Of a stretch of DNA of 35,920 nucleotides, positions 3,346 to 33,949 are shown one piece after another (position 1 is the first letter of the stretch; every line of letters starts with the position of its first letter). The stretch spans positions 1 through 35,920 of the forward strand of contig DYMB01000003.1 of the NCBI GenBank assembly GCA_020721805.1. Reading direction: 5' to 3'. The position numbers and the translations under genes were made by a program. Under the pieces are notes generated by a model. That model searched no databases. It worked only from the letters and a program-made list of their open reading frames with translations, and was not told the origin of the DNA. This DNA comes from Acetofilamentum sp. Lineage in GTDB: Bacteria; Hydrothermota; 32-111.

Positions 3346-4717
3346 AAAATGAAATGATAAATGTTGTTCCCTTTTTAGGGATGGAGATGAATTTAATCTT
3401 ACCATTATAATATTCAACCATCTTTTTTACCGAATAAAGTCCAATTCCAGTACCATATCCTTTACTCTTAAAATTTTCAGTATTTTTTGTTGTAAAATAC
3501 AAATCAAAAATTTTATCTTTTACTTCCTCGGATATACCCACCCCACTATCCTCTATTTCTATGGATAAAATTCGATTCTGAAAATATGTTCTTATTGTCA
3601 GATTTTTTATTTCTGAAAACTCCATAGCGTCTATGGCATTATCAACAATATTTTCGAATATCATTTTAAAATCGCCAATCGCTATTTTTAAAGATGGCAA
3701 ATTTTTTCCTTCGAGAAATTTGAAATATATATTTTTTTGTATTAAGGTTTCTTCAAGGAATTTCAATTCCTCTTTTATAAATTGGTTTACATTTATGTTA
3801 ATATTCTCGGATTCATCCTTTTTGTTTAAAAGCATTTTCATCTGATCCGTTACGAAAAGAAGATTCTCTATAACCCTGTTCAGTTTGAACTGTTCAACAA
3901 GTTCGGGTCTTTTCTTTATCAGGATCTGTATATATCCAAGAACACTCGTTAAAGGATTGTTAATGTTATGAACGATGGATTGACTGAATTTTTCGAGAAT
4001 CAATGTTCTGTTTATTTTAAAGAGTTCAAGGTTCTTTTTTGCTTCCTCTTCAATTTTTATAACATTGTAAAAAGCGTTAATATAAAATGCTAGAAAAATA
4101 AAGATGAAGAAAATTATAAAAATATAGATCGAAAGAAAAAGTGAAAATATGTTATTTATATTTTTGAAGACCAAATCTTTTGAATGTATTGATAGCATCG
4201 TAAAGGAAAAATTTTTATCAGAAATATGTTTCATATAACCTACAAGATATTGTCTGGTTTCAAAAAAACCATAATGTGAATTCAACCTGTGGTAATACTC
4301 AAGTTGGTATTTTATTTCATCAAGAATACTATCAGGATGTAAAATAATTAAAAAATTTTGTTCTGAAGATTCTTTAGAAAAAAAATTTTTTATAACAAAA
4401 TTTTTCAAATTTTCAGAAACCAGGTAAAAATTTTCGCCACTTTTAAGATAGAGTTTATCTCCGGAAAGAATTATATCTGAATAAGGATTATTTTCGGTGA
4501 TTTTGAAATTTTCAAGATGATTATTTTCGTTTATAATTGAAGAAAAATTTAAATCGATCAGTTTGATAAAATTATTCAAAAGATCTTGAGTTTCCATATA
4601 AAAATCGTTTCTTATATCATTCTTTACATCGATGTAAAGAATGGTTGAAAAAAAGATAAATATTGTCAACATCAAGAAAGATAAAATGATTATGTAATAT
4701 ATTGAATTTTTTCTCAT
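3335..4717 (-). CDS. Membrane sensor histidine kinase
   Basis: The protein has 460 residues. A membrane helix at about 7-29 and another at about 190-215 flank an extracytoplasmic sensor region with no recognised domain. The H-box is SIVHNINNPLTSVLGY, with phospho-acceptor His250. The ATPase domain shows the N-box NIVDNAIDA (Asn356/Asn360), the G1 box DSGVGI (from Asp390) and the G2 box GYGTGIGL (420-427), so it should be active. No response regulator is encoded in the window, making it an orphan kinase. It is the last gene of a leftward run, 6 nt after a PDZ-plus-membrane protein. Those membrane neighbours resemble the sensor half of ComP-type kinases, so they may pass signals to this kinase. 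That link is inference. Confidence 0.9.
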   Translation of the reverse strand: MRKNSIYYIIILSFLMLTIFIFFSTILYIDVKNDIRNDFYMETQDLLNNFIKLIDLNFSSIINENNHLENFKITENNPYSDIILSGDKLYLKSGENFYLVSENLKNFVIKNFFSKESSEQNFLIILHPDSILDEIKYQLEYYHRLNSHYGFFETRQYLVGYMKHISDKNFSFTMLSIHSKDLVFKNINNIFSLFLSIYIFIIFFIFIFLAFYINAFYNVIKIEEEAKKNLELFKINRTLILEKFSQSIVHNINNPLTSVLGYIQILIKKRPELVEQFKLNRVIENLLFVTDQMKMLLNKKDESENININVNQFIKEELKFLEETLIQKNIYFKFLEGKNLPSLKIAIGDFKMIFENIVDNAIDAMEFSEIKNLTIRTYFQNRILSIEIEDSGVGISEEVKDKIFDLYFTTKNTENFKSKGYGTGIGLYSVKKMVEYYNGKIKFISIPKKGTTFIISFSID

Positions 4718-4723
4718 AATTCT

Positions 4724-5719
4724 TTATAAAAAGACTTTTATTAAGATTTGTTTGAACTTTATCAAGAGAACCAAATTGATCAGGTAAAAAAGAAAGAAAA
4801 AATAAAAAGGTATGAGTTCATGATGTCTTAAAACGAATGGAAAAGTGTAAAAGAGTGGATATAAGAGAAGAAGAAAAACAAATATGAATGAAGTTATAAA
4901 ATATTCTTTTGGAGCGTTTTTTTGATAAAGTTTAAAAATTTTAATTAAAATAAAGAGTATAGAATGGATCATATTTATGGAAGTGGTCACATGGAAGATT
5001 TTAAGAAAAAAGGTGAGAGACCGATGATCTTCAGGATTCAAACTCAAAGTAAATTTTACATATGAAAACAACCATAGTAAAGAGGATGTTGAAAATAGGA
5101 ACAAAACCAGATATGAAAAAAAAGAATACCTGTAGTTTATTAAAAAATTTTTTGTAAATATGAAAAGTAAAAATTGACTTATAAAACATATTATGATAAA
5201 TAAAGAATAAAGGAATAAATTGGAGAATGGAACATTGATGAATACTGACATTAAAGATATGGACAAAAATATCCCAAGAAGAGATTTTACGGTCCTGGTT
5301 AAAGGGAAAGAGAGATAGATCGTTAAAGAGAAAAGAAGGAAAAAAATAGCTATCAATAATGAAAAAAGAATTTCTATAATTTTAAATCTTCTTTCAAGTT
5401 TTATTTGAAAAGTTTTTAACTTTTCTCCACTTTTAATTATGTATTCAACATATGTGTTTGGTTTTACGACATCGAAAACCTTATTGTGAAGAAAATGCTT
5501 ATTTTTTATTTGTATTCTATTTACATATAAGAGTTTATCTTTGATCATTATGCCACTTTTGTAAATGTTACTTTTCGGGGTTATATATTTAAAAAATAAT
5601 GTATCGTTTTTTGTTTCATAGAATGCTTTATCGTTTGAGATAAGAAATACTTTATAGGTCGCGAAAATTTCAAGAATAAAAATTAAAGTTACAAAAATGA
5701 TAAAATTAATTTTTTTCAT
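4724..5719 (-). CDS. PDZ-like plus multispan membrane protein, copy 2
   Basis: The ATG at 5719 (MKKINFIIF) gives 331 residues and a 14-nt overlap with the gene upstream; a GTG at 5749 would add ten residues but has no better ribosome site. One membrane helix (about 3-22) is followed by an extracytoplasmic region containing SGIMIKDKLLYVNRIQI, a diverged PDZ-like carboxylate loop and strand. About seven more hydrophobic helices follow. It parallels the neighbouring gene in layout and motifs (VSFLISNDKAFYE-like start, WLFSYVKFTLSL against WLFPYMNFAFSL), so the two are tandem paralogues. There is no catalytic domain. The layout recalls the N-terminal sensor region of ComP-like kinases. Its role may be signal reception for the kinase downstream. 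Confidence 0.7.
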   Translation of the reverse strand: MKKINFIIFVTLIFILEIFATYKVFLISNDKAFYETKNDTLFFKYITPKSNIYKSGIMIKDKLLYVNRIQIKNKHFLHNKVFDVVKPNTYVEYIIKSGEKLKTFQIKLERRFKIIEILFSLLIAIFFLLFSLTIYLSFPLTRTVKSLLGIFLSISLMSVFINVPFSNLFLYSLFIIICFISQFLLFIFTKNFLINYRYSFFSYLVLFLFSTSSLLWLFSYVKFTLSLNPEDHRSLTFFLKIFHVTTSINMIHSILFILIKIFKLYQKNAPKEYFITSFIFVFLLLLYPLFYTFPFVLRHHELIPFYFFFLFYLINLVLLIKFKQILIKVFL

Positions 5720-14148: not shown

Positions 14149-14843
14149 TCTTTACTCCCCCCTGAAAAATCCAATTTAAAAATATCCTCTGGATTAACTA
14201 TTTTCCCTTCTCTTAAACCGATTATCTTTCCTATAGATTTTTTTATCAAGGAATAATCATGGGTTGCCATAAGGATAGCTGTTCCTTTTGTATTGATATC
14301 AAAAAGGATATCCATTATCTCTCTGGTACCTTCCGGATCAACATTACCTGTTGGTTCATCTGCGATAAGAATGAATGGTTCCTTTACCAGTGCTCTTGCG
14401 ATGGCAACTTTTTGTTGCTCCCCTCCTGAAAGTTGATAGGGAAAAGAATTTCTTTTATGTGATATTTTTACAAGGGATAATGCTTCGAGAGTCTTTTTTC
14501 TGATGTTCTGGTATTTTTCACCTGTTACCTGCAAAGCAAAGGCAACATTATCATAAACATTTCTATCTTTCAAAAGTTTAAAATCTTGAAAGATCACACC
14601 TATTCTTTTTCTTAAAAGTGGAATTTCATTTTGTTTGATTGTTTTACTACTAAAATTTTCAACAATGATTTCTCCTTCGGAAGGGAAAATTTCCATATAG
14701 ATCATTTTTAAAAGTGTTGATTTTCCAGCACCACTTCTACCGATAAGATAATAGAATTGTCCTTTGTCAAACTTCAAATTTATTCTATTTAAAGCGAGCC
14801 AGTCATTTTTATAATATTTTGAAACATTTCTAAATTCTATCAT
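14145..14843 (-). CDS. ftsE: Cell-division ATP-binding protein FtsE
   Basis: The protein has 232 residues. Walker A is GRSGAGKSTLLK, the Q-loop region reads GVIFQDFKLL, the ABC signature is LSGGEQQKVAIARAL and Walker B is LIADEPTGNVDPE, followed by the H-loop ATHDY. All catalytic residues are intact. It powers FtsX in the inner membrane at the division site. It overlaps transketolase upstream by 14 nt and ftsX downstream by 4 nt, so it is co-transcribed with carbon-metabolism genes, an unusual pairing. Confidence 0.96.
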   Translation of the reverse strand: MIEFRNVSKYYKNDWLALNRINLKFDKGQFYYLIGRSGAGKSTLLKMIYMEIFPSEGEIIVENFSSKTIKQNEIPLLRKRIGVIFQDFKLLKDRNVYDNVAFALQVTGEKYQNIRKKTLEALSLVKISHKRNSFPYQLSGGEQQKVAIARALVKEPFILIADEPTGNVDPEGTREIMDILFDINTKGTAILMATHDYSLIKKSIGKIIGLREGKIVNPEDIFKLDFSGGSKE

Positions 14844-15771
14844 AAAGAATTTTCCCCTTTTTCATTATAGATTCTTTACTCAATCCATATTTTTCAAAAA
14901 GTTCTTCAACTTTACCTGATTCACCAAAGGTGTCATTTACTGAAACCGATTCTATAGGGAGTGGATGGTTTCTTACAACATATTCTGCGATGGAACCGAA
15001 GAGTCCACCAATTAAGGAATGTTCCTCGCAAACGAGTATCCCCTTTGAAATATCGATTATACTATCAAGAGTCTTTGTATCAAGTGGCTTTAAAGTGTAC
15101 ATATCAACAACACCTGTATCTATTCCTTCTTTTTCAAGTTCCAGCATAGCCATAAGAGAATATGAAACGAGTTGTCCTGTTGCAACTATCGTTATATCTT
15201 TTCCTATTTTATGTATATAAGAACCACCTATTTCAAAATCCTGATCTTTTTTATAAATTTCATAAACATCATTTCTTGGTAAACGCATATATAGATAGGA
15301 TTCGTAATGGTATATTTTTTCCATAAGGTTTGAAACCATATTTGGATCTGAGGGAGAAAGGATTGTGATTTTTGGGATTACTCTTGTAATTGCTATATCT
15401 TCAAGCATTTGATGACTTGCCCCATCTTCTCCTACTGAGATTCCTGCATGTGTTGAGATCAATTTAACATTCCAGGAAGGATAGGCTATGGAATTTCTTA
15501 TCTGATCGTAAACTCTTCCAGTTAGAAATACTGCAAAAGATGAACAGAAAGGTTTAAATCCTACAGAAGCAAGACCTGCCGCTGTAACGACCATATCAGC
15601 TTCCGATATACCCATATCAAAAAATCTTTCAGGAAATTCCTTTTTGAAAAATTCAGTTTTAGTGGATTTTGCAAGATCGGCATCTAAAACAACAATATCA
15701 TCATACTTTTTCCCAAGATTAACCAGTTCTTTTCCGTAAACGGCTCTCAAAGATGATTTTTTTTTAAACAT
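14830..15771 (-). CDS. Transketolase, C-terminal subunit
   Basis: The protein has 313 residues and covers the pyrimidine-binding and C-terminal domains of a two-subunit transketolase. Visible landmarks are DADLAKSTKTEFF, PERFFDMGISEADMV (with the Glu that activates thiamine diphosphate), HAGISVGEDGASHQ and the C-terminal GILVCEEHSLIGG. Together with the N-terminal subunit it transfers two-carbon units in the non-oxidative pentose phosphate pathway. The start overlaps the partner's stop by 8 nt. Split transketolase is common in archaea, Thermotogota and several anaerobic bacteria. A DXS-like enzyme is less likely because of the short split form. Confidence 0.92.
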   Translation of the reverse strand: MFKKKSSLRAVYGKELVNLGKKYDDIVVLDADLAKSTKTEFFKKEFPERFFDMGISEADMVVTAAGLASVGFKPFCSSFAVFLTGRVYDQIRNSIAYPSWNVKLISTHAGISVGEDGASHQMLEDIAITRVIPKITILSPSDPNMVSNLMEKIYHYESYLYMRLPRNDVYEIYKKDQDFEIGGSYIHKIGKDITIVATGQLVSYSLMAMLELEKEGIDTGVVDMYTLKPLDTKTLDSIIDISKGILVCEEHSLIGGLFGSIAEYVVRNHPLPIESVSVNDTFGESGKVEELFEKYGLSKESIMKKGKILYDRI

Positions 15772-16579
15772 TTGAAAGTTCCATTAAAGCTTTTTCAAAC
15801 TCTTCTTTGTTTGGTGGATTTCCATGAAAATCAACATTATTTTCCATAAAGGAAACACCTTTTCCTTTTATAGTATTGGCAATAATGAATACAGGTTTTT
15901 TCTTTATTTTATCCGCTGAAGTGAAAGTTTTATCTATTTCTTTAAAATCATGCCCATCCATTTCAAATGTAGCAAAACCAAAAGATTCGAATTTTTCTTT
16001 TGTTGGTCTAGGATCCTTTATATCCTCTATTTTCCCATCAATTTGTAAATGGTTGTAATCGAGTATGATACGGAGATTATCAAGTTTATATCTTATGGAA
16101 CTCATCAACGCTTCCCATATCTGACCCTCGTTTATTTCGCCATCACCTATCATAACAAAAACTTTCGATGGAATATTTTTTAACTTTAATCCAATAGCGA
16201 CACCGTTTGCAAAAGATAATCCCTGTCCGAGAGAACCTGTTGATGTTTCAACTCCAGGTGTTAGTTTTCTGGAAGGATGTCCCTGAAGTATGGAATTGAT
16301 TTTTCTAAAACTTAAAAGTTCATTTTCACTTATTATACCTTTATAAGCAAGACAGGTGTATAAGGCTGCTGAGGCATGCCCCTTTGAAAGAATGAATCTA
16401 TCCCTGTCGGGCTTATCATAATTATCTTTAGAATAATTCATTTTTTGAAAATAAAGATAAACCATTATATCTATAGCGGAAAAAGAGCCTCCGATATGAC
16501 CAGATGAAGCGTTGTAAACCATTTTTAAAATATCTATTCTTGCTTTTTTTGATATCTTTTTTAATCTCTCTATATCCAT
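15764..16579 (-). CDS. Transketolase, N-terminal subunit
   Basis: The protein has 271 residues: the thiamine-diphosphate (PP) domain. It shows SGHIGGSFSAIDI, DRFILSKGHASAALY, GHPSRK, STGSLGQGLSFANG and the diphosphate/Mg motif GDGEINEGQIWEA ending in DYNHLQIDG. It works with the C-terminal subunit in the cytoplasm. It is the first gene of an operon that continues with ftsE and ftsX. The start has no Shine-Dalgarno, but a good promoter ends 8 nt upstream, so the message may be leaderless. Confidence 0.93.
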   Translation of the reverse strand: MDIERLKKISKKARIDILKMVYNASSGHIGGSFSAIDIMVYLYFQKMNYSKDNYDKPDRDRFILSKGHASAALYTCLAYKGIISENELLSFRKINSILQGHPSRKLTPGVETSTGSLGQGLSFANGVAIGLKLKNIPSKVFVMIGDGEINEGQIWEALMSSIRYKLDNLRIILDYNHLQIDGKIEDIKDPRPTKEKFESFGFATFEMDGHDFKEIDKTFTSADKIKKKPVFIIANTIKGKGVSFMENNVDFHGNPPNKEEFEKALMELSNV

Positions 16580-22557: not shown

Positions 22558-24411
22558 TTAATTAAAAAGTTTGTCTACCCCTTTTGCTGCATTCAAACCT
22601 GTTGCTATACCGTTAACTATATCGGGTCCTTTTACTATATCTCCAGCAGCAAAAATCTTTTCAATTCCTGTTGAATAGTTTTCATCGAGTACTATTTTAC
22701 CTCTTTCGAATTTCATCTTTGACCTGTATTCTTCTGGAATAAATGAATAATCTGGTGCTTGACCTATCGCTTCTATTATCATAGTTGCTTCACATATGAG
22801 TCTTTCATTCTCGTTAAACTTAGGGTTGAATCTCATATTTTCATCAAAAACTGACTCACATTTCATAAAATCAAGTCCCTTTATGTTACCCTTATCATCA
22901 AGTATAATCTCTTTTGGACCCATTCCATATATTAAGGTAACCCCTTCTTCCGCGCTCTCCTCGATCTCCTCTTTATCTGCTGGAATTATATCTGGAGTCT
23001 CAAGACAGACCTGTGTAACCTTTACTTTCCCAAATTTCATCTTCTGTAATCTTGCAACACTTCTCGAACAATCAAAAGCAACATTTCCACCGCCTATCAC
23101 AAGAACATTATCCGTGATTTTTACATCGCTGATTTTATTTGAAAGGAATTCTCTTACATCGTGTAAAAATGGTAATGCACCAACAACATTTTCCATACCA
23201 TTTCTTGAGAGGTTTGTAGATCTTGGGAGATCGAAACCTGTTGAGATTATTATAGCATCATACTCTTTGTATATTTTTTCAAACATATTTTTATCAATAT
23301 TTGTATTGGTTTTTATCTCAACGCCTAAAGATTTTATAAAATCTATATCCTTATTTAGAGCATCTTCCGGTAGTCTGTATGCTGGTATTCCATATCGCGC
23401 GATACCACCCGCTTTTGCTTCTTTTTCAAATATTGTGATCCTGTATCCCATAAAAGATAAAAAGTATGCAGCCGATAATCCTGCAGGTCCGCCTCCTATA
23501 ATCGCTACACTTTTTCCTGCTTGTTTTATAGGTTTATTTGCAATCACATTTTTATACTCTTCAAGTGGTAAAGAGTCGACAGCGTATCTTTTTAACCATC
23601 TTATCGCGACAGGTTCGCCTCTATGACCCAGAGAACATACGGATTCACACTTGTGCGTGCAAACCCTTCCGCAGACTTCAGGTAAAGGATTCGTTTTATA
23701 TATCTCTTTTACCGATTCTTTAACATCATCGTTAAATATTGCCATAATGTATTCTGGTATATCCATATGGATTGGACATGCATCCTTACAAAGACCACAG
23801 GCAACGCATCTTCTGGCTTCAAGAATAGCTTCCTCTTTTGTATATCCTTTTACAATTTCAAGAAATGAATTACTCCTTTCTTCAGGGTTAAAAATACCCA
23901 TCACAACCCTCTTCAATTCAAGCCAGGAATAATTGTTATCTGTTATCCACCCCTGATTCTTGGAAAAGTTCAAATCGGGTCTTATTATAAAATATTTTGA
24001 AATAATTTCTCCCTGAGTATCCTCTGTCGCTTCAGGTGGAGTGGGAAAGTTGTTTACATATTCCCTTGACATACCAAGAGAAGATGTTGTGCAAACATCA
24101 ACGCAAAACCCACAGAAACAGCATCTTCCATAATCTATAACGGGTCTTTTTTTAGTTGCTCCATTCTTTTCTTTAACATCATCAAACTCTACCATCTGTA
24201 TTGCACCTGTTGGACATATATCTTCACATGTTCCACAACCTATACATTTTTCAAGATCGTTAAAATGCCTTCCACGATATTGAGGTGATACTCCCTCAAC
24301 TTCTGGATAGGTTTTTTTATTTTCTTTTGGGTATCTAATAGTTACCGGATCTTTCAAAAGATATTTCAATGAATTGAAAGGTGCAAAAAAAGATTTCTTT
24401 TTATAATCCAT
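22558..24411 (-). CDS. Fusion: NuoI/MbxN-like ferredoxin + GltD/NfnL-like flavoprotein
   Basis: The protein has 617 residues. Residues 1-120 are the NuoI/MbhN-type subunit with two 4Fe-4S motifs (Cys56/59/62/66 and Cys97/100/103/107; the second lacks the usual final Pro). After a linker of about 80 residues comes a full GltD-like module: a 4Fe-4S motif (Cys202/205/208/212), the Cys247/251/255/259 set, the FAD loop AIIGGGPAG (303-311), the NAD(P) loop VIGGGNVAF (438-446) and the C-terminal FAD block FAAGDIVKGPDIVNG. NfnL, SudA and GltD use this module to exchange electrons between NAD(P)H and Fe-S clusters. Here it is attached to the electron-input arm of the membrane complex. An AGGAG site precedes the ATG. 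It is the last gene of the operon, 8 nt after the NuoD-like gene. Confidence 0.9.
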   Translation of the reverse strand: MDYKKKSFFAPFNSLKYLLKDPVTIRYPKENKKTYPEVEGVSPQYRGRHFNDLEKCIGCGTCEDICPTGAIQMVEFDDVKEKNGATKKRPVIDYGRCCFCGFCVDVCTTSSLGMSREYVNNFPTPPEATEDTQGEIISKYFIIRPDLNFSKNQGWITDNNYSWLELKRVVMGIFNPEERSNSFLEIVKGYTKEEAILEARRCVACGLCKDACPIHMDIPEYIMAIFNDDVKESVKEIYKTNPLPEVCGRVCTHKCESVCSLGHRGEPVAIRWLKRYAVDSLPLEEYKNVIANKPIKQAGKSVAIIGGGPAGLSAAYFLSFMGYRITIFEKEAKAGGIARYGIPAYRLPEDALNKDIDFIKSLGVEIKTNTNIDKNMFEKIYKEYDAIIISTGFDLPRSTNLSRNGMENVVGALPFLHDVREFLSNKISDVKITDNVLVIGGGNVAFDCSRSVARLQKMKFGKVKVTQVCLETPDIIPADKEEIEESAEEGVTLIYGMGPKEIILDDKGNIKGLDFMKCESVFDENMRFNPKFNENERLICEATMIIEAIGQAPDYSFIPEEYRSKMKFERGKIVLDENYSTGIEKIFAAGDIVKGPDIVNGIATGLNAAKGVDKLFN

Positions 24412-24419
24412 TTTTTCTC

Positions 24420-25556
24420 CTATCTATCAAAATCTGGTGGACATATATCCATTGTAGCCATCCACAAGGCAACATCCTCTATCCTGCAACCAACCAAAAC
24501 CTTTTGTGCAAGAATAAGACCTGCTGTATAAGATCCACCTCTAACTGCCATCCTGTATGGTTTATCACCACCATCGGAGACTATATAGTAAGCATGTTCT
24601 CCTCTTGCCGATTCAATCTTAACATATACTTCTCCTTTTGGGACTTTGAATTTTAAAGGATTTGGCATATTTGCTCTTACAGGTCCATCAGGAATATCCT
24701 TTAAAGCTTTTCTTATTATATCAAGACTTAGTTGAAATTCTTCTCTTCTCTGGATTGCTCTTGCCAGTCCATCACCTTCATTCTGAGATGGAATATCAAA
24801 ATCTATTTTATCGTATGCTGCATAAGGCACCATCTTTCTTATATCATATTTTACACCTGTTGCTTTTAAATTTGGACCTGTTATTCCATATTCTATAGCA
24901 AGTTCCTTTTCTATCTTTCCAAGACCTTTTAATCTTTTTATCACAAGTGGGTTATTATATATCAATCTATCATATTCGTTTAATCTTTTTTGTAAATAAT
25001 CTATGGTTTCTTTTAATTTTTCTGTCCATCCGTTTGGAAGATCCCTTCTAACTCCTCCTGGAAGTATATACATATGGTAAACTCTTGCACCGGTTAACCA
25101 TTCGAAAAGGTCAAGAAGGTAATCTCTATCACTTATAGACCAGTATGATGCGGTGTATAAACCGGTTGTACCACCAATACCACCAAAACCAAAAAGAAAG
25201 GCACTAAGTCTTGCCATCTCTAAAACTATGGTTCTTATATAACTTGCTCTTAAAGGAACATCTATATGGCAAAGTTTTTCAATGGCTGTTGAATAGACCA
25301 TTTCGTTTATATCAGGTTCAGGAACACATATTCTTGGAATAAGGGCTATATTCTGCAACCACAATCTTCTTTCTACGAGTTTTTCAAAACCCCTGTGCAA
25401 CAATCCAGGATCTGGAGAGACCTTTTTTATAGTATGACCATCAACTGTTAGAATATAGGAAAAATTTCCACTCATTCCTGGATGATTTGGTCCAAAAAAT
25501 AGTTCGTAAACTTCATACTCTTCATCTTTCCCAAGGTATGTTAATATTTCACTCAT
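24420..25556 (-). CDS. NuoD/MbxL-like large subunit
   Basis: The protein has 378 residues, homologous to the large subunit of group 4 NiFe hydrogenases and to NuoD. The start region has FGPNHPGMSG and DPGLLHRGFEKL. At the two NiFe-binding sites only the first Cys of each CxxC pair remains: RICVPE (Cys77, Glu80) and DICPPDFDR at the C terminus (Cys372, Asp375). Hydrogenases have RxCGxC and DPCxxC. This half-lost pattern fits the Mbx/Mbs branch between hydrogenases and complex I. The subunit should sit on the cytoplasmic side next to the NuoB-like cluster and not bind Ni-Fe. The ATGA overlap joins it to the NuoC-like gene. Confidence 0.9.
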   Translation of the reverse strand: MSEILTYLGKDEEYEVYELFFGPNHPGMSGNFSYILTVDGHTIKKVSPDPGLLHRGFEKLVERRLWLQNIALIPRICVPEPDINEMVYSTAIEKLCHIDVPLRASYIRTIVLEMARLSAFLFGFGGIGGTTGLYTASYWSISDRDYLLDLFEWLTGARVYHMYILPGGVRRDLPNGWTEKLKETIDYLQKRLNEYDRLIYNNPLVIKRLKGLGKIEKELAIEYGITGPNLKATGVKYDIRKMVPYAAYDKIDFDIPSQNEGDGLARAIQRREEFQLSLDIIRKALKDIPDGPVRANMPNPLKFKVPKGEVYVKIESARGEHAYYIVSDGGDKPYRMAVRGGSYTAGLILAQKVLVGCRIEDVALWMATMDICPPDFDR

Positions 25557-26038
25557 TCTTTATCCTTTTTGAATTTTCCAAAAATAGTGTTTGAATATTT
25601 CAAAGAATCGAAATCTTTTCTTAAAGGTGGGATATCCTTCCAGTTATGCAATATGAGCGGTCTTTTATCATCATTTCCAATAAAATCTATTCCAAAAAAC
25701 TCATGAACATCCCTTTCATACATAGTAGCGATCTCCCATAAATTTTTTATCGATTCTATGCTGGGTTCCTGTCTATCTATATAAGTTTTTACAATCAACT
25801 GTTGTTCATATTCATATGAAAAAAGAATATATACAACTTCAATTTTTTCTTCCTTTATCCAATCCACAGCGGTTATCAAAGCAAGTTCTTTGAAATTGGA
25901 AAGTTTCAAAAACGAAAGAATATTAATTATACGTTCCTTTTGAACTGTTATTGAAAACTGTTTTTCATCTATACTCTTTATATTTTCTATTCCTTTAAAA
26001 TTATTTTTAATATATTCGATCAATTCTTTCTGATTCAC
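25553..26038 (-). CDS. NuoC/MbxK-like 30-kDa subunit
   Basis: The protein has 161 residues. It ends with the family signature: YERDVHEFFGIDFIGNDDKR, then PLILHNW and PPLRKDF. In complex I and related enzymes this soluble subunit packs against the NuoD-like subunit. It carries no cofactor. It is linked to its neighbours by 4-nt overlaps on both sides, which matches the J-K-L order of Mbh/Mbx operons. Confidence 0.92.
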   Translation of the reverse strand: MNQKELIEYIKNNFKGIENIKSIDEKQFSITVQKERIINILSFLKLSNFKELALITAVDWIKEEKIEVVYILFSYEYEQQLIVKTYIDRQEPSIESIKNLWEIATMYERDVHEFFGIDFIGNDDKRPLILHNWKDIPPLRKDFDSLKYSNTIFGKFKKDKE

Positions 26039-26601
26039 TTTTCCTCCCCGGACAGTACAGGAAATTCCCTTTTAAGAACACTATCCTGGTTCTGTTTATA
26101 CCATTTGTAGTTTTCTTGATATTTTTTATAACCAACAGCCTCACCATTTTCAATCTGTTTCATCAATTTTATAAATCCTTCTATTATGGCTTCAGGCCTT
26201 GGCATGCAACCTTCAATTGATAGATCAACTGGAATATAGAGAGCAAGCCTATTTATCACAGAATAGGAATCATAATAGATTCCACCATTAATCGGACAAG
26301 AACCAAGTGCTATAACCCATTTTGGATTCTGCATCTGTTCATAAGTGTATATAACTCTTTTTAAAGATTTTAATGATAAATAACCTGTTATAAGAAGAAG
26401 ATCCGCCTGCCTTGGGGTAGCCATTGGACCCATTCCAAATCTTTCCATGTCCCATCTTGAAGTCATTGTTGGAGGTAATTCAACAGCTCCACATCCTGTA
26501 CAATAATGTAACATCCATAAAGATTTTTTTCTAAAAAAATTTAAGATCTGTTCGAATCCTTCATCTTTTAATTTTTTTGTTGAATAAAGTTCCATTTTCA
26601 C
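26035..26601 (-). CDS. NuoB/MbxJ-like Fe-S subunit
   Basis: The protein has 188 residues. All four ligands of the proximal 4Fe-4S (N2-type) cluster are present: Cys34 and Cys37 in YCTGCGAVELP, Cys102 in GSCPINGG and Cys132 in GCMPRPE. This subunit passes electrons from the ferredoxin-like arm to the site at the large subunit. In the Mbs sulfur-reducing complex this cluster is thought to serve as the reduction site. It is co-translated with the membrane subunit upstream and NuoC downstream by 4-nt overlaps. Confidence 0.94.
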   Translation of the reverse strand: MKMELYSTKKLKDEGFEQILNFFRKKSLWMLHYCTGCGAVELPPTMTSRWDMERFGMGPMATPRQADLLLITGYLSLKSLKRVIYTYEQMQNPKWVIALGSCPINGGIYYDSYSVINRLALYIPVDLSIEGCMPRPEAIIEGFIKLMKQIENGEAVGYKKYQENYKWYKQNQDSVLKREFPVLSGEEK

Positions 26602-27494
26602 CTCTTGATTAAAAACAATATCAATTGGAAAAGCACAAAAGATGTTGGTATAGTCCAGAAAAATTTCACGCCATCTTCAAACCTAAATCTTGGAAAAACT
26701 GAAGCGATGGAAAGGGTTAAAAGATAAAGAAAAAGTTGTTTTGTAAAAAATCCTATTATTGTCCCACCGCCCAAAAACATTGCAGTTATAATTCCAGTTT
26801 CAAGAAATATCTGTGATGCATGTTGAAGAAAACCAAAACCAAGGAATTTACCTGAAAGTTCAACCATTGGACCTGAAGCGATCTCAGCAGGCGCAATCAT
26901 CGCATCAAATGGTTGTTCTCCAAGCATTCCCTGCAATGCTATTATGGTTCCTATGAAAGCAAAAGGATATTTTAAAAGGTTCCAATTGTATATCGAGCCT
27001 TGTTGTGTTTGAATGATGTTGTAAAGCAAAGATGATCCATTTGCAAAAATTAAGAGTATAACGGCTAAAGCGAATGGGATCTCATATCCTATCATCAAAG
27101 CAAGTGCTCTTCCTATACCTATAGGGGAATTTGGATTACCAGATGCTGATACTCCCATCGCCATTCCGAGATATCCTATAGTCATAAAATACATAATTAT
27201 TATAAGATTTCCCTTCATATCTGGGAAAACATAAAAATTTCCTATGGGTAAAAATATAACTGTTGCTATTATTCCAGAAAATCCCATCATTATTCCAAAA
27301 TCCATTATCCAGTGATGGGAAATGGAGTGTTTTGAAAAAAGTTTAATAACATCTATAAAGGATTGATAAAATGGACCAGCATAACATCTTCTAATCCTCG
27401 CAATAAATTTTCTTCCAATACCCATATAAAGAAGACCAAGTATTATGGAAGTTAACGATCCTATCAAAAATCTAACAATATAGTTGTTCATCAT
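26598..27494 (-). CDS. NuoH/MbxM-like membrane subunit
   Basis: The ATG at 27494 gives 298 residues and an ATGA overlap with the upstream gene, the pattern used throughout this operon; a GTG at 27503 would add three residues. There are about eight membrane helices. Landmarks are YAGPFYQSFIDVIKLFSKH, GNPNSPIGIGRALALMIGYE and GEQPFDAMIAPAEIASGP, with acidic residues conserved in NuoH. It links the soluble Fe-S arm to the antiporter-like channels. Quinone binding is not implied by sequence alone. Confidence 0.92.
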   Translation of the reverse strand: MMNNYIVRFLIGSLTSIILGLLYMGIGRKFIARIRRCYAGPFYQSFIDVIKLFSKHSISHHWIMDFGIMMGFSGIIATVIFLPIGNFYVFPDMKGNLIIIMYFMTIGYLGMAMGVSASGNPNSPIGIGRALALMIGYEIPFALAVILLIFANGSSLLYNIIQTQQGSIYNWNLLKYPFAFIGTIIALQGMLGEQPFDAMIAPAEIASGPMVELSGKFLGFGFLQHASQIFLETGIITAMFLGGGTIIGFFTKQLFLYLLTLSIASVFPRFRFEDGVKFFWTIPTSFVLFQLILFLIKR

Positions 27495-29380
27495 AATAAC
27501 CACCAGTAGATAATTATCAAAACAAAACTTAACATAAAGGTATATATCGTTCCTCTTATACTTCCAGACTGAAAATCTCTAAAATAACCACCTATTTCGT
27601 TAATCTTTCTTTCTATAGAGTCATAAAACTCTTTTGTATCGGTTCTGAAAGAATCAAACATATGTTCAAAAGGTCCATAGAATTTGTAAGCAAAATGATA
27701 TAGTTCCCTTGTTAAATTAAAATCGGCAGGATCCTGCCCGGCTGTATAAGTATCGAGAGGTTGAACATGTTTTCTTGGTTTTCCAATAAGATAGAGTATA
27801 AAAGCAAGGATGAAGGAACCTGTAAAGGCAAGAAAAACCTTTACTGAATCTATTCCAGAGAGAGGGGAAAATATCATACTATTTTTTATGTTAATATTAG
27901 AGATATTGTATGAAGTTAAAACTGAGTTTATAAGGTTTATAACAAATTGTGGGAATATTCCAATGCTTACCATCAAAAACATTAAAATATACATTGGAAT
28001 CTGCATAAGAAATGGTACCTCTTTTACATTATCAAATTTTTCAGGAAGTTGGCCAAGAAATATTGAATGTAAAGCCCTGAAAAGGTACATAAATGCTCCA
28101 GTTGAGGAAAGAAAAATCGCCAGAGTTAAAAATGGAAACTTTGAAGATAAAAGACCCTGATAGATCATCCATTTTGAAACATAACCGTTAAGTGGTGGTA
28201 TACCCGCCGCAGATATTATTGCAAGAAGGAAAGTTAAAAAGGTGACCGGCATTTTGTATGCCATTCCACCAAGTTTATGCATCTGTGTTTCATGTGTTCT
28301 ATATTTTACAGCAGCAATCGATAAAAATATTGCTGTCTTAAATATCGCATGGTTTATTGTATGAAAGATAGCGCCTGCAATTCCAAATGATGATAAAGAA
28401 AAGAGTGCTGTTGTTATATAACCCATATTTGCAACCGTTGAATATGCTGCGAGTTTTTTCATATCATTCGATTCTATAGCAAGAAAAGTTGCTATTATAG
28501 AGGTTATGGCACCAGACCAGGCAAGAATATGTGAGAACAAAGGAATATTATTTACCATAATATGGTTTACAGGATATTCTTTTATGAAAAGAAAGAGTGG
28601 GATGAAGAATAGTATCGTCCTGTATAACCCATATTTAATTATTATACCTGATAGAACCGACGAAAAATCATCGGGTGCTTTAGCATGTGCCTGTGCAGGC
28701 CATATGTGAAATGGAAAGAGTGCTGATTTTACAAAGAAACCTATTATTAAACTTATCGCTACGAAAATTGCATTTAAAGGAGAGTTTTCAAAAAGTGATA
28801 TAAAATATAAAACATTTTTCTGAATTGAAAATGTACCCGTTCCTTCATAAAGGATCATTATTCCAGAAAACATGAAAAAACTGCATATTATGGAAAAAAT
28901 AAAATAATAGTTTACAGCCCTGAAAGAACTTACCCACCCCGGAGAGATAACAAAATAAGAGGAAATTCCAATCAACTCCCAGAAGATAAATAATGTGAAA
29001 AGATCATCTGCCAAAAATAACCCTGTATTTGATATGATAAGAATAAACCAGAAAAAATTTATCAATCTCTCAGCATCCTCATTTTTATTTTTCACGATCG
29101 AAAAGATGGAAGTTAAGAATAAGAGTAATGTTGTAAAGAGTGTAAATAACCATCCTAAGGGTGTTATTCTAAAATTTAAAGACAGATCAAAGTTAAGGAT
29201 AGAGATCAGGTTAAATGTCTCAAAATATGTTGAATCTTTACCTATTGTTATTGTCAAAAATAAAGTTAAAAAAATGTAAAATGAAAAAATTATCCACCTT
29301 AAAAAATTATATTTTTTCCTTACAAAAAGTGCCAGAAAGGAAAGAATAATACCATAAAAAAGTAAACCGATAATCATCAT
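27491..29380 (-). CDS. NuoL/MbxH'-like ion channel subunit, intact
   Basis: The protein has 629 residues with about 14 to 15 membrane helices. Key charged residues are in place: Glu135 in IFWELIGISSY, Lys218 in GFFVKSALFPFHIW, Lys249 in SGIIIKYGLYR and Lys348 in NHAIFKTAIF. These form the proton or sodium path of antiporter-like subunits. The C-terminal part extends beyond MrpD length, with a charged segment before a last helix; that resembles the lateral helix of NuoL but should be modelled. AGGAGAG lies 4 nt before the ATG. This is the second MrpD-family subunit, which Mbh lacks but Mbx has. Confidence 0.92.
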   Translation of the reverse strand: MMIIGLLFYGIILSFLALFVRKKYNFLRWIIFSFYIFLTLFLTITIGKDSTYFETFNLISILNFDLSLNFRITPLGWLFTLFTTLLLFLTSIFSIVKNKNEDAERLINFFWFILIISNTGLFLADDLFTLFIFWELIGISSYFVISPGWVSSFRAVNYYFIFSIICSFFMFSGIMILYEGTGTFSIQKNVLYFISLFENSPLNAIFVAISLIIGFFVKSALFPFHIWPAQAHAKAPDDFSSVLSGIIIKYGLYRTILFFIPLFLFIKEYPVNHIMVNNIPLFSHILAWSGAITSIIATFLAIESNDMKKLAAYSTVANMGYITTALFSLSSFGIAGAIFHTINHAIFKTAIFLSIAAVKYRTHETQMHKLGGMAYKMPVTFLTFLLAIISAAGIPPLNGYVSKWMIYQGLLSSKFPFLTLAIFLSSTGAFMYLFRALHSIFLGQLPEKFDNVKEVPFLMQIPMYILMFLMVSIGIFPQFVINLINSVLTSYNISNINIKNSMIFSPLSGIDSVKVFLAFTGSFILAFILYLIGKPRKHVQPLDTYTAGQDPADFNLTRELYHFAYKFYGPFEHMFDSFRTDTKEFYDSIERKINEIGGYFRDFQSGSIRGTIYTFMLSFVLIIIYWWLL

Positions 29381-30909
29381 TTCTCTCCTAATTTTAATAT
29401 TGTTTGAATATACTCTTTTTGATTAAAAATCTCTTCGCTCATTTTTGTTATCACCTTTTCATATATGTTAGGGAAAATAAAAAATATGATCAAAATGGAT
29501 ATCATCGTTAAACCTGAAACAAAATATGAAATTGAAAGATTATTTTTTATATTTTTATTTTCCCGTTCGGTCTCATCTTTTATAAAAAGTTTATGAATCA
29601 TTCTGAAATAGTAGAAAAATTCAACCGTAATGGAAAAGATTATAACTATAATAAAATATGTATAATAATTGAGTTTCGAAGCATAAGTGTAAAATAGCAT
29701 AAGTTTCCCAAAAAAAGCGGGTGTTAGAGGGAAACCTGTAAAAAATATAGCGGAAACTATAAAGAGAATTGAAAAATATCTCTTTCTGTTTATGCCATTT
29801 TTAAATGAATCTAAATTTTTTTCCATCTTTCCCTTTGTTATCTGATGTGATGATAAAAATAGTAAAGGCTTTGATATTATCGTACTTATAATGAGAAGGA
29901 TCGCTGATGAAAATCCACTCTTTGTTCCAGAAGTTAAAGCGAAAAGTATAGTTGAAATGGTTGCTGCTGAAGAGAATGCAAGTATCCTTTTAATATTTTT
30001 GGAAGTTAAAGCGACAAGTTGGTTAACGATGATGGATAGGGAAAAGAATGTTAAAAGTAAAAGTTTTATATCCAAGGGAAAATTATAAGAATATAAAGAT
30101 ATTGATGGATAGTTGAAAATTGTAAAAAACATTCTGATAAATATGTATAAAGATACAACACAACTTATTCCACTCAAAAGTATATTCACAAAATTTTTTG
30201 CACCAGCATAGGAATCGGAAATCCACAAATTGAAAGGAAAGACTTCCAGTTCAGAGAGAATTGAGCCCATAAGAAAGAATATTATGAAACATTTCGAAAA
30301 GAAGGATATTTTTTCAAAATTCAAAGCAATTTCAGCAAGATTCAAGGTTCCAAGAATCGCATATATATAACCTATAGCGAAAAGTAAAAGAGCGGAACCT
30401 ATGGATGAAATTAACAGATATTTTATACTACCCTTTAAAGAAAATTTTTCATTTTTCAGGGATATTATGATTATGTTGGATATTGAAAAGATTTCAAAAA
30501 ATACAAAAAGGTTGAAAAGATCTCCGGTAAGTATTATTTCAGAAAAAGAGGCAAGATACAAAAGTAAAACAGAAGATATCTTTTGCTGGTTATTTTTTGT
30601 ATCATTTTTAAAGATGAAAATTATTGCAGAAATTAGAAATACTATATATAACGCTATTAAAAAAAGAATCGAGAAGAAACTTGAAACAAGATTTATTCCA
30701 AAAGGAGGATGATAATTGCCTATTATTGTAATAAGATTTCCATATTTTAAAACTACGGAAAAGATTTTTAACGAAAATAATAGATTAAATAGAATAGTGG
30801 CAAGAAAAATGATTTTGAAAGATTTTTTTATTAAACCAACAGGCATATATACAAGGAAGGATGATAAAATAGGTATTATTATAAGCAGTACCGTGGTATT
30901 ATAATTCAT
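29377..30909 (-). CDS. MrpD/MbxH-like subunit with altered channel residues
   Basis: The protein has 510 residues with about 14 membrane helices. Glu139 in LFVFFEIFSISN is kept, and the late SKPLLFL lysine is kept. The helix-7 lysine (normally GFxxKA) is Ser219 in LMGSILSELEVFPFNLW. The lysine after the SG motif (SGxxxKxG) is Val251 in LSGISCVVSLY, and HAGAP is YAGAK. These changes would disturb the usual ion path. GGGAGAC precedes the ATG by about 5 nt, and the start overlaps the MrpC-like gene by 11 nt. It remains structurally placed between MrpC-like and NuoL-like subunits. Confidence 0.9.
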   Translation of the reverse strand: MNYNTTVLLIIIPILSSFLVYMPVGLIKKSFKIIFLATILFNLLFSLKIFSVVLKYGNLITIIGNYHPPFGINLVSSFFSILFLIALYIVFLISAIIFIFKNDTKNNQQKISSVLLLYLASFSEIILTGDLFNLFVFFEIFSISNIIIISLKNEKFSLKGSIKYLLISSIGSALLLFAIGYIYAILGTLNLAEIALNFEKISFFSKCFIIFFLMGSILSELEVFPFNLWISDSYAGAKNFVNILLSGISCVVSLYIFIRMFFTIFNYPSISLYSYNFPLDIKLLLLTFFSLSIIVNQLVALTSKNIKRILAFSSAATISTILFALTSGTKSGFSSAILLIISTIISKPLLFLSSHQITKGKMEKNLDSFKNGINRKRYFSILFIVSAIFFTGFPLTPAFFGKLMLFYTYASKLNYYTYFIIVIIFSITVEFFYYFRMIHKLFIKDETERENKNIKNNLSISYFVSGLTMISILIIFFIFPNIYEKVITKMSEEIFNQKEYIQTILKLGEK

Positions 30910-31267
30910 CTTTGTCTCCCATCCTATTTATGTTTAAAGTTCTATAATATTGAAACAATCTTATACATAATCCAATTCCAACTGCTGTTGTTCCAACTCC
31001 TATAACTATTGCTGTTAGAACAAGTGCGTGTGGTAATGGATCCGATATGTTTAAATTGGATACTGAAATTTTTCCCATATTGGCATCGAGTATTGGAGGT
31101 TTTGAATTTTTTATATAACCTATTGAAACCAAAAAAATGTTGGAAGCGGTCTCAACTACACTGATAGAGACGAGTATCTTTATAAGATTTTTATTGGTTA
31201 TCGCACCAAAGATACCAATAAGAAAAAGTATGGTTGAAAAAATGTATAAAATTCTATTATCTATCAT
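30899..31267 (-). CDS. MrpC/MbxG (NuoK-like) subunit
   Basis: The ATG at 31267 (MIDNRILYIFS) is preceded by GGAG at 7 nt and gives 122 residues; an ATG at 31279 is also in frame but has no ribosome site. There are three membrane helices. SISVVETASNIFLVSIGY contains the conserved membrane Glu, and DPLPHALVLTAIVIGVGTTA is the MrpC/NuoK signature. It forms part of the small-subunit channel bundle. It overlaps the MrpB-like gene by 11 nt. Confidence 0.93.
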   Translation of the reverse strand: MIDNRILYIFSTILFLIGIFGAITNKNLIKILVSISVVETASNIFLVSIGYIKNSKPPILDANMGKISVSNLNISDPLPHALVLTAIVIGVGTTAVGIGLCIRLFQYYRTLNINRMGDKDEL

Positions 31268-32084
31268 TATTTTCTCCATCGTAAAGAGTTTTAATCGCTA
31301 CCGAAAGTTCAGCACCAACTTTTATCGATACCAGAGAGTAAAGAATTAAGATCAGATATGAACTGAAGAGTTTTCCAACTATTCCTGTTGGTAAATAGTT
31401 TCCAAGGAAAGAACCAGTGATGAACAATCCTAAAAGGGCTAAAAAAAAGACTAAAAATCCAGAAGTAGATTCGATAAAATTTAAAAATTTTAATTTGTAT
31501 GAGAATTTGTATCCTATCATTAAAAATAAAGATAAAGTAGCGATAATTGAACCAGCAGGGAATCCTCCGCCAGGGGTTAAGTGTCCATGTAGAGAAATAT
31601 AGATTGAAGTGAGCATGATAAAAGGTGTTAAAAACAAAACACCTGTTTTTTGTAAAAAGGTGGGAGGATTAAAGGGAACAAAATTTAAATTTGAAAGAAT
31701 TATCGTTAAACCGATTATCGATATAAAAAGGACTATAAGTTCACCAAGAGTGTCAAACCCTCTATAATCAAGAACTATTGATGTGACGATGTTTGCACTT
31801 CCATTTTCCAGATTAGCACTTTCTTTAAATCTTATATCATTCCTTTCTTGATTGTAAATTTCCCTATATTTTGAATAATCACCAGATTCTTTTAAAGTCT
31901 TTGTAATATCTGTAACAGATTTTGTTGAATATGCGAAGGAGACTCTATTTCTTAAATCTTTAATTTCTTTCTCAATTTTAAGACCATTTCCTTGTTCGAA
32001 GAGAGGAAAGAGCATAAAAATAAAAATTATAAATAGAAAAAGAAAAGCAAAGAATTTCCCAACATTGAAATCTGTTTCTTTCAT
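31257..32084 (-). CDS. MbhE-MbhF (MrpB-like) fused membrane subunit
   Basis: The protein has 275 residues. The first half has a membrane helix (about 10-28), a polar segment (about 30-95) and a helix after the signature DYRGFDTLGELIVL (MbhE / MrpA C-terminal part). The second half is a MrpB domain with GVLFLTPFIMLTS and HGHLTPGGGFPAGSI. In Pyrococcus-type operons these two parts are separate genes, so this is a fusion or a retained ancestral form. The polar insert is longer than needed to join helices and should face the extracytoplasmic side; its role is unknown. Confidence 0.85.
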   Translation of the reverse strand: MKETDFNVGKFFAFLFLFIIFIFMLFPLFEQGNGLKIEKEIKDLRNRVSFAYSTKSVTDITKTLKESGDYSKYREIYNQERNDIRFKESANLENGSANIVTSIVLDYRGFDTLGELIVLFISIIGLTIILSNLNFVPFNPPTFLQKTGVLFLTPFIMLTSIYISLHGHLTPGGGFPAGSIIATLSLFLMIGYKFSYKLKFLNFIESTSGFLVFFLALLGLFITGSFLGNYLPTGIVGKLFSSYLILILYSLVSIKVGAELSVAIKTLYDGENNDR

Positions 32085-32323
32085 TTATCCTCCCTTTCGG
32101 TTCTCCTGATTCCGAAGAGATATATTACCGTTGTTAACGCTGCACCTACTGCTGCTTCTGTTATGGCAACATCGGGTGCATTCATTAGAAGGAAAAGAAT
32201 CGATGCTAACAAACTGAGGAAGCCAAGTGAAAGGACACTGAAAAGTATATCTTTCACAGTTATTGAAATGATAGCACTCAAAATGGATAGAATAAAAATG
32301 ATCAAAAATATATAAAATATCAT
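32081..32323 (-). CDS. MbhD-like (MrpA C-terminal part) subunit
   Basis: The protein has 80 residues and three membrane helices. The signature APDVAITEAAVGAALTTVIY (50-69) with a membrane Glu marks the domain found at the C-terminal side of MrpA and as MbhD/MbxD. Four-nt overlaps with both neighbours place it between MrpG and MbhE-F, exactly as in Mbh/Mbx operons. Confidence 0.9.
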   Translation of the reverse strand: MIFYIFLIIFILSILSAIISITVKDILFSVLSLGFLSLLASILFLLMNAPDVAITEAAVGAALTTVIYLFGIRRTEREDK

Positions 32324-32646
32324 TTTTTCTCCCTTTCTGTTAATGAAAGAGCATCAAATTCGTCTTCCTTTAATCCGATACCTGTTTTATGTGTAGCGTT
32401 TGCCAGAGAGTGCGAAGCGATCGGAGCGGTAAAGAGTATAAAAAATGCAATAATTACTGCTTTGTATATGCATGAAGGGTTCAAAATTCCAATACCTATT
32501 ATCGTAGAGAATGAACCAAGTGTTGTTGCCTTTGTTGATGTTTGTAATCTGTTATATATATCTTTCATTCTTATCAGTCCTAAAGATCCCAGAAAAGAAA
32601 AAATTGTTCCAACAAACACTAAAAATATTCCAACGATTTTCATCAT
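32320..32646 (-). CDS. MrpG/MbxC-like subunit
   Basis: The protein has 108 residues and three membrane helices. GLIRMKDIYNRLQTSTKA is the family hallmark. It is a small Mrp-module subunit that stabilises the antiporter part. Four-nt overlaps link it to MrpF and to the MbhD-like gene. The C-terminal 25 residues are charged and cytoplasmic. Confidence 0.93.
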   Translation of the reverse strand: MMKIVGIFLVFVGTIFSFLGSLGLIRMKDIYNRLQTSTKATTLGSFSTIIGIGILNPSCIYKAVIIAFFILFTAPIASHSLANATHKTGIGLKEDEFDALSLTEREKK

Positions 32647-32903
32647 TTTACCTTCCCTTCTAAATATTTTGAAATTGCGATGACAGAGATGAAGGATATA
32701 ATAGAATATACAAGTGAAACATCCAGAAAATAAGAATTTTCTAAAAATAAAGATAACATAACAAGAAAAGATGTGGAGACCGTTGTAAACATATCAAGAG
32801 CTATCACTCTATCCTGTAATGTTGGTCCTTTTAAAAAACGTATAAATATCAATAGAACGGAGAATCCAAGTATAAAAAACCATAAAATATAAAATGTTTT
32901 CAT
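32643..32903 (-). CDS. MrpF/MbxB-like subunit
   Basis: The protein has 86 residues and three membrane helices. FLKGPTLQDRVIALDMF is the MrpF signature, with Asp and Arg in the loop/helix. It is part of the E-F-G trio that heads Mrp and Mbh/Mbx operons. Four-nt overlaps link it to both neighbours. Confidence 0.93.
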   Translation of the reverse strand: MKTFYILWFFILGFSVLLIFIRFLKGPTLQDRVIALDMFTTVSTSFLVMLSLFLENSYFLDVSLVYSIISFISVIAISKYLEGKVK

Positions 32904-33400
32904 AAAGCGAACCTTTTTATCCTTTGTTCAAATGGTTTTATGATCTGCTGATATGCTTCATCTTCGGATTTAATTTTTGTATCCATACAATGAATAAATA
33001 GATCATCACCCTTTACATCAACGGAAAGGGTACCGGGAGTGAGTGTTATCGAATTTGCGAGAATAGATTTTCCAAAATCAGATTTTAAGTTTGTTTTACA
33101 TTTTAGTATGGCGGAGTTGATATTAATTTTAGGTGAAAGAACTATCTTTGCAACATTAAGATTGGCTTTGATTATCTCAAGTAGTAGAAAAAAAAGGTAA
33201 GATAAAAGATAAAATATAAATTTGAAAATAGAAGTTGTAGATGAAAAAAAACTGGAAAAATTGTAAAATAGTATCATTATCAAAAAGAATATTAATATAC
33301 CTGTTAAAATTTCCTGTAAATCCAACGGGAAGGTTAAGGCGATATAAATTAAAAAGAGTAGAAAAAAAGATTTTAAATAATTGGAAAAATTAAGTTTCAT
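32900..33400 (-). CDS. MrpE/MbxA-like subunit, first gene of the Mbx operon
   Basis: The protein has 166 residues. Membrane helices in the first half are followed by a cytoplasmic domain with the hallmark ANSITLTPGTLSVDV and LFIHCMD. An AGGAG site 4 nt before the ATG and a clear promoter mark it as the first gene. All thirteen genes from here to 22558 lie on the same strand, the largest gap being 8 nt, so the whole complex is made from one message. Confidence 0.94.
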   Translation of the reverse strand: MKLNFSNYLKSFFLLFLIYIALTFPLDLQEILTGILIFFLIMILFYNFSSFFSSTTSIFKFIFYLLSYLFFLLLEIIKANLNVAKIVLSPKININSAILKCKTNLKSDFGKSILANSITLTPGTLSVDVKGDDLFIHCMDTKIKSEDEAYQQIIKPFEQRIKRFAL

Positions 33401-33574: not shown

Positions 33575-33949
33575 ATGAAAAGAATATGTGATCTGAAAAA
33601 AATTTTTAGAGAGATTTTTGTTTTTAACGATAACCTAAAGAAAAGAACAGGTTTAACTCTTAATGAGGTTATGATAATATGTTTTTTGAGTGAAAAACCA
33701 TATACGATCAATCAACTTACAAAAGAGATCCTTGTTTCAAAATCGAGAACTACAATAATTCTTAGATCACTTGAAAAAAAAGAATTGTTGAAAAAAGAGA
33801 GATCATCAATGGATGGTAGAAAGAAATATCTTATCTTAACAAAAAAAGGAAAGAAATTGTTGAGTAAATTAAAGAGTGAGGATATATTCTTCCCCCAGAT
33901 AAAACTAGTAAGAAAAAGGAAAAAATCTTATCCTATTCTGGGAAAATAA
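33575..33949 (+). CDS. MarR-family-like winged-helix regulator
   Basis: The protein has 124 residues. A helix-turn-helix runs from YTINQLTKEILVSKSRTTII, followed by the wing KKERSSMDGRKKYLILTKKGKKLL, all typical of MarR. The N-terminal dimer helix is short and the C-terminal dimer helix is replaced by a basic tail, so it is smaller than most MarR proteins. No ligand site can be read. The start has no Shine-Dalgarno. A 21-bp palindrome just upstream suggests autoregulation. It faces away from the Mbx operon across a 174-nt gap and may control it; that is inference. Confidence 0.75.
   Translation: MKRICDLKKIFREIFVFNDNLKKRTGLTLNEVMIICFLSEKPYTINQLTKEILVSKSRTTIILRSLEKKELLKKERSSMDGRKKYLILTKKGKKLLSKLKSEDIFFPQIKLVRKRKKSYPILGK

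Follow-up and report, generated by a model that had tools for sequence, protein, structure and literature searches.

A NuoI-GltD fusion protein as the predicted NADH-input subunit of a bacterial MBS-type complex

Overview

The window analyzed here, a stretch of 35,920 nucleotides from Acetofilamentum sp. (phylum Hydrothermota), carries a 13-gene minus-strand operon whose last gene encodes, in a single chain, a NuoI-like ferredoxin-type subunit and a GltD-type flavoprotein module. We propose that this fusion is the electron-input subunit of a bacterial ion-pumping complex of the MBS type (formerly Mbx), and that electrons from NADH would pass through FAD and a series of iron-sulfur clusters to sulfane sulfur or a similar acceptor, this transfer being coupled to ion pumping (probability of about 0.6 for the whole reading).

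The fusion protein

The coordinates 22558-24411 were verified, and the gene lies on the minus strand, not on the plus strand, where the same segment reads with 24 stops. The features of the gene are listed below.

22558..24411, minus: NuoI-GltD fusion protein, 617 aa, last operon gene (open frame without internal stop, Pfam, NCBIfam, 80-row alignment, AlphaFold2 model)
24055..24411, minus: NuoI/MbsN-like domain, residues 1-119, two [4Fe-4S] motifs (NCBIfam NuoI models over 4-119; PDB 6u8y_N)
23890..24054, minus: linker joining both halves, residues 120-174 (no family match confined to the linker in Pfam or NCBIfam)
23542..23889, minus: Fer4_20 domain, residues 175-290, with 8 cysteines (two [4Fe-4S]) and the invariant Lys274 (Pfam Fer4_20 at 180-280; cysteine conservation)
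23590..23592, minus: Lys274, aligned to StnC K170 and NfnB Glu117 (alignments)
22561..23541, minus: FAD domain with embedded NAD(P) Rossmann domain, residues 291-617 (Pfam Pyr_redox_2 at 301-597; Foldseek)
22999..23007, minus: C-L-E, residues 469-471, at the position of the NADP-phosphate-binding YRR (alignment of 80 fusions)

Pfam analysis of the fusion protein reports Fer4 (residues 52-72), Fer4_7 (55-109), Fer4_20 (180-280), and Pyr_redox_2 (301-597), while NCBIfam returns NuoI models over residues 4-119, GltD models over residues ~165-615, and PRK13984 over residues 3-615, the latter with 826-827 bits, below its curated cut-off of 946. Only NuoI-like and GltD-like domains were returned by these two libraries, a NuoG domain being absent from the chain. 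Residues 4-119 score 90 bits with chain 6u8y_N of the PDB, 51 bits with Nqo9, and 41 bits with the N subunit of MBH. The chain contains 16 cluster cysteines, arranged in four groups (56/59/62/66, 97/100/103/107, 202/205/208/212, and 247/251/255/259). AlphaFold2 models the whole chain confidently (pLDDT 90.8, pTM 0.87), the pLDDT dropping to 58-70 in the linker near residues 121-140 and then returning to about 90. Foldseek analysis of this model places NfnL first (5jca_L, with a target-length TM score of 0.87) and NfnABC, GltD, StnC, and DPD next. The first-pass annotation, which had read this gene as a NuoI-like subunit with two 4Fe-4S motifs fused to a complete GltD-type FAD-NAD(P) module, is thus borne out by the single 617-residue frame, the family matches, and the 16 cysteines. 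An assembly error, a mis-join, or chance, the first of which had been raised there as a possible objection, is ruled out, as many assemblies made independently contain full-length fused homologues (39-76% identity).

Operon and partner subunits

Upstream of the fusion gene, 12 partner genes follow one another with overlaps or short gaps.

32900..33400, minus: MnhE-like subunit, first operon gene (NCBIfam TIGR00942 and related models)
32643..32903, minus: MnhF-like subunit (NCBIfam PRK12604 and related models)
32320..32646, minus: MnhG-like subunit (NCBIfam TIGR01300, above its cut-off)
32081..32323, minus: MbhD-like subunit (Pfam MbhD)
31257..32084, minus: MbhE and MnhB domains in a single chain (Pfam MnhB, MbhE)
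30899..31279, minus: MnhC/NuoK-like subunit (Pfam Oxidored_q2)
29377..30909, minus: antiporter-like subunit, MbsH type (Pfam Proton_antipo_M; PRK08377)
27491..29380, minus: antiporter-like subunit, MbsH' type (Pfam Proton_antipo_M; PRK08668)
26598..27503, minus: NuoH/MbsM-like membrane subunit (Pfam NADHdh)
26035..26601, minus: NuoB/MbsJ-like subunit with a CTGCG motif (top PDB match 6u8y_J)
25553..26038, minus: NuoC/MbsK-like subunit (Pfam Complex1_30kDa)
24420..25556, minus: NuoD/MbsL-like catalytic subunit (top PDB match 6u8y_L)

The membrane arm is of the Mrp type, with two Proton_antipo_M genes together with MnhB/C/E/F/G-, MbhD-, and MbhE-type parts. Against the PDB, NuoD scores 392 bits with MBS (6u8y_L), 265 with complex I, and 140 with MBH, and NuoB scores 238 bits with MBS (6u8y_J) and 108 with MBH J. 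Both remnants of the [NiFe] site found in MBS are present in NuoD, Cys77 corresponding to MbsL C85 and Cys372 to MbsL C385, whereas the other two [NiFe] cysteines are missing and Pro74 occupies the CxxC position. The complex I quinone residues Nqo4 His38 and Tyr87 are replaced by Ser29 and Val78 (roles of the MBS and complex I residues from PMC7684303). NuoB aligns gaplessly to 6u8y_J and exhibits the identical CTGCG motif, which is predicted to leave three cysteines for the proximal cluster. Since the NuoD and NuoB scores favour MBS, Cys77 and Cys372 are kept, and the quinone residues are replaced, the complex is assigned by sequence to the MBS type, in line with the Mbx-like operon recognized at first reading.

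Among the 13 operon genes, Pfam and NCBIfam analyses detected neither NuoE, NuoF, or NuoG nor an NfnA-like gene. An ordinary complex I is excluded, NuoEFG being missing and the quinone residues replaced, and so is a [NiFe] hydrogenase (MBH, group 4), as NuoD retains just Cys77 and Cys372 of the four ligands and the genome (1.70 Mb, 99.8% complete) returned no PF00374 match for the hydrogenase large subunit. The same genome encodes an RnfD-type subunit and a separate standalone NfnAB pair, so the fusion does not serve as a substitute for Nfn. Neither of the menaquinone markers MqnA and MenB was found in this 99.8% complete genome, which makes menaquinone an unlikely acceptor; UbiA matches occur, but they are uninformative on quinones because all 14 control genomes match as well.

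Distribution and conservation

Scanning 84,980 species genomes yielded 309 relatives. The best 80 of these 309, a biased sample since they are those most similar to the window, span WOR-3/TA06, Thermotogae, Spirochaetes, Izimaplasma and other Tenericutes, and Clostridia, as well as Myxococcota/Deltaproteobacteria, Desulfurellales, Bacteroidetes, and others. Within the window's phylum the fusion is found in 26 of 147 genomes, which are nearly the same genomes as those with close NuoD matches, the exceptions being truncated contigs. We examined 101 fusions, six of which lie at contig ends; the other 95 leave room upstream, and every one of these has an MBS-type NuoD gene immediately before the fusion (median spacing 26 bases), while 51 loci possess all 12 partner genes. 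The objection raised in the first-pass annotation, that such fusions might be common outside Mbx operons, is rejected (0/95 loci with room upstream). Far from being unusual, as had been supposed, the single-chain fusion is the standard last gene of the MBS-type operon in Thermotogae, WOR-3, Spirochaetes, Izimaplasma, Clostridia, Myxococcota, and others. One control genome, probably T. maritima, has a PRK13984 match above the cut-off.

None of the 16 cluster cysteines varies in the alignment of 80 sequences (39-76% identity to the window protein), and Lys274 and R346 are each present in 101/101 fusions. In a quick tree, a branch with support 99 sets all sampled fusions apart from six other GltD-type domains, a topology that, with this small outgroup, is consistent with a single fusion event. 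Two local variations were observed. At L026, from a Spirochaetales genome, the antiporter block is located downstream of the fusion gene and not at the operon start; and in loci of Izimaplasma and other Firmicutes (e.g. L046, L066, L074), the NuoB motif is CTGCC, its extra adjacent cysteine recalling the CC of complex I.

Nucleotide specificity and flavin behaviour

In T. maritima NfnB the NADP phosphate is held by Y310-R311-R312, and, among DsrL proteins, YRR marks users of NADP(H) and, e.g., S/T-L-E users of NAD(H), an assignment in which the kinetics of model proteins are extended by sequence motif (PMC7596348). At this position xLE is found in 69 of the 80 aligned fusions and YRR in the remaining 11, and the two types form one group each on a tree built with the motif columns kept in. 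Because C-L-E stands in place of YRR, the window protein is predicted to use NAD(H), as does the characterised DsrL-1, whereas the separate, minority YRR clade is predicted to use NADP(H). What had been annotated as an NAD(P)-linked module hence keeps its nicotinamide linkage, refined to NAD(H) rather than NADP(H). The fusions of the YRR clade (L006, L007, L103-L117) comprise about 590 residues, and the aligned ones are devoid of an insertion before the second Rossmann strand. A short distance downstream of the YRR-type fusion at L110, positions 3713-4731 hold an NfnA-like gene together with the beginning of an NfnB-like one.

The cluster next to the FAD has a glutamate ligand, Glu117, in NfnB and a lysine, K170, in StnC, which is non-bifurcating (PMC10482914, PMC7596348). 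In the alignments, Lys274 of the window protein occupies this position, and, as it is the lysine of StnC and not the glutamate of NfnB, it favours a simple, non-bifurcating electron transfer by the GltD half and disfavours bifurcation of the NfnL type. R346 is the counterpart of NfnL R201 and of StnC R239 and does not discriminate, since the non-bifurcating StnC keeps the same arginine. The initial label of a GltD/NfnL-type module is thus retained for the GltD type, with a fold nearest to NfnL, but not for NfnL-like function, Lys274 making the module Stn-like.

Two other views of the GltD half can be weighed on this basis. The flavin could bifurcate, sending NADH electrons both to ferredoxin and to the membrane complex, or confurcate, with ferredoxin and NADH as joint donors to that complex. 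NfnL as the closest fold and the match of R346 to NfnL R201 in every fusion point this way, but StnC does not bifurcate with the same arginine, Lys274 resembles StnC and not NfnB, and no NfnA-like gene is found in the window's operon; we regard bifurcation as very unlikely. Likewise, the physiological nucleotide could be NADPH instead of NADH, given that same-phylum relatives with YRR (e.g. G019, G053) appear built for NADP(H). However, the window protein belongs with the xLE majority, and the two types group separately on the tree, which leaves NADPH highly improbable here.

Proposed electron path

In the reading we prefer, the NuoI half would take the place of MbsN and bear the distal and medial clusters, and the GltD half would act as a built-in NADH dehydrogenase. 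Its FAD would be reduced by hydride transfer from NADH, and single electrons would travel from it through the two GltD clusters and the two NuoI clusters to the proximal MbsJ-like cluster. From there they would reach a chamber formed between NuoB, NuoD, and NuoH, the most likely acceptor being sulfane sulfur (polysulfide) or something similar. The antiporter-like membrane arm would be driven by this electron transfer to translocate ions. As suggested at first reading, the arrangement is most naturally interpreted as an input linked to nicotinamide that takes over from NuoEFG, with NADH as the probable donor. The path is supported by the operon linkage in 95/95 loci, the invariant cysteines, the MBS-like NuoD and NuoB, C-L-E, and Lys274, as well as by the 4.36-fold upregulation of T. 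maritima mbxA on sulfur (PMC9431562), although in the same study the T. maritima complex is modelled as ferredoxin-driven.

The main difficulty of the proposed path is energetic. The potential of polysulfide is roughly -260 mV. As NADH lies at about -280 mV physiologically (PMC9304861), only a small potential difference separates NADH from sulfane sulfur, and little pumping would be possible unless sulfide is kept low. Moreover, 16 relatives without the NuoD cysteine pair retain the same fusion, and one acceptor may therefore not serve the whole family. They are listed below.

NuoD subgroup with Asn for Cys77 and no Cys372: L031, L041, L050, L054, L061, L069, L072, L073
The same NuoD subgroup, continued: L079, L082, L083, L085, L088, L099, L100, L102

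Judged by sequence, the catalytic chamber of this subgroup differs, while the fusion is of the same NAD(H) type.

This subgroup makes another acceptor a real possibility for the fusion family as a whole, and a quinone or an organic disulfide of unknown identity might replace sulfane sulfur: the chamber is family-wide, and a His occupies the Nqo4 His38 position in 49 of 91 aligned NuoD. Yet Val stands at the Nqo4 Tyr87 position in 90 of the 91, the window NuoD has Ser at the His38 position, and MenB and MqnA were not found in the genome, so that such an acceptor seems rather unlikely. The direction of flow may also be questioned, with reduced ferredoxin as the donor and the GltD half as the exit, the complex then standing in for Rnf as an ion-coupled ferredoxin:NAD+ oxidoreductase. 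NfnB-type modules do exchange electrons with ferredoxin, more energy is available from ferredoxin to NAD+ than from NADH to sulfur, and MBS itself accepts ferredoxin electrons (PMC7684303). On the other hand, the genome also encodes an RnfD-type subunit, and a route contained in one peripheral subunit would bypass the NuoB/NuoD chamber, which, by analogy with complex I, should be needed for coupling; we consider this role unlikely.

If electrons do run from NADH to the membrane complex, nicotinamide would enter a complex-I-like machine by a second route, unrelated to NuoEFG, and would do so in organisms of many phyla, both fermenters and sulfur users, among them Thermotogales. Bioenergetic models in which ferredoxin drives the Thermotoga complex (PMC9431562) would then have to be revised, because the energy available per electron is far lower with NADH. 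The NAD(H) and NADP(H) clades on the same kind of complex would provide a ready comparative test. More tentatively, and with somewhat less than even odds, the fusions might define a widespread, undescribed complex-I-like class, namely a quinone-free NADH:sulfane-sulfur oxidoreductase and ion pump whose NADH input, by a GltD-ferredoxin-subunit fusion, evolved independently of NuoEFG, with an NADP(H)-using sister clade.

Relation to known systems

One close counterpart is the P. furiosus membrane-bound sulfane reductase MBS (6u8y), with which the window complex shares the subunit set, the two antiporter-like subunits, the counterparts of C85/C385, and the NuoB CTGCG motif. In P. furiosus, however, MbsN is a flavin-free, ferredoxin-accepting protein of 208 residues. 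The window complex is thus a variant of MBS and not a plain member, its N subunit being fused to Fer4_20 and Pyr_redox_2 domains, and the archaeal standalone MbsN would make the fusion a clear example of the modular growth of respiratory complexes. The NCBIfam entry NF010590/PRK13984, "putative oxidoreductase", has the same full-length architecture over residues 3-615, but the window protein falls below its cut-off and the model gives neither function nor partner.

Regarding the GltD half, StnC of the Stn transhydrogenase (8oh5) is likewise a non-bifurcating GltD-type module that feeds a complex-I-like cluster chain, with a lysine at the same position; it differs in using NADPH, in being joined to a NuoG domain, and in belonging to a soluble complex. 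NfnB/NfnL of NfnAB offers the closest fold (5jca_L), the FAD, and two [4Fe-4S] clusters, but has YRR for NADP(H), the Glu cluster ligand, NfnA as partner, and ferredoxin as acceptor. DsrL, an NAD(P)H:acceptor oxidoreductase, combines a GltD-type body with a two-[4Fe-4S] ferredoxin domain, and its NAD(H) and NADP(H) types are split by YRR; in contrast, this ferredoxin domain is C-terminal, and the partner is the sulfite reductase DsrAB, in a soluble system.

Our literature search, which missed some MBS papers, returned no published description of the fused NAD(H) module, and an earlier mention is possible. T. maritima possesses a 13-subunit, sulfur-induced MBX, modelled with reduced ferredoxin as the donor (PMC9431562). 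A twelve-gene mbx operon has been described in this species, TM1217 being listed next to TM1204 in T. petrophila (PMC2246101); this neighbourhood is compatible with the GltD-like gene near Thermotoga Mbx mentioned in the first-pass annotation and does not by itself settle the architecture.

Genomic surroundings

A MarR-like regulator gene (33575-33949, plus strand) diverges from the MnhE-like gene at the head of the operon (33400, minus strand). Between the two lies a good promoter-like site (33447-33420, minus strand) from a scan that was overall no better than shuffles, promoter-like and terminator-like sites across the operon not being clearly commoner than in shuffled sequences. Approximately 1.4 to 5.2 kb past the end of the window (L148:4276-8102, G000 contig C54), NuoE-like, NuoF-like, and [FeFe]-hydrogenase genes stand in a row resembling HydABC, and these NuoE/F-like genes belong to the [FeFe]-hydrogenase cluster and not to the MBS-type operon. 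Within the window, the adjacent minus-strand genes at 14830-15771 and 15764-16579 resemble, by sequence, a split transketolase, the former its C-terminal and the latter its N-terminal half.
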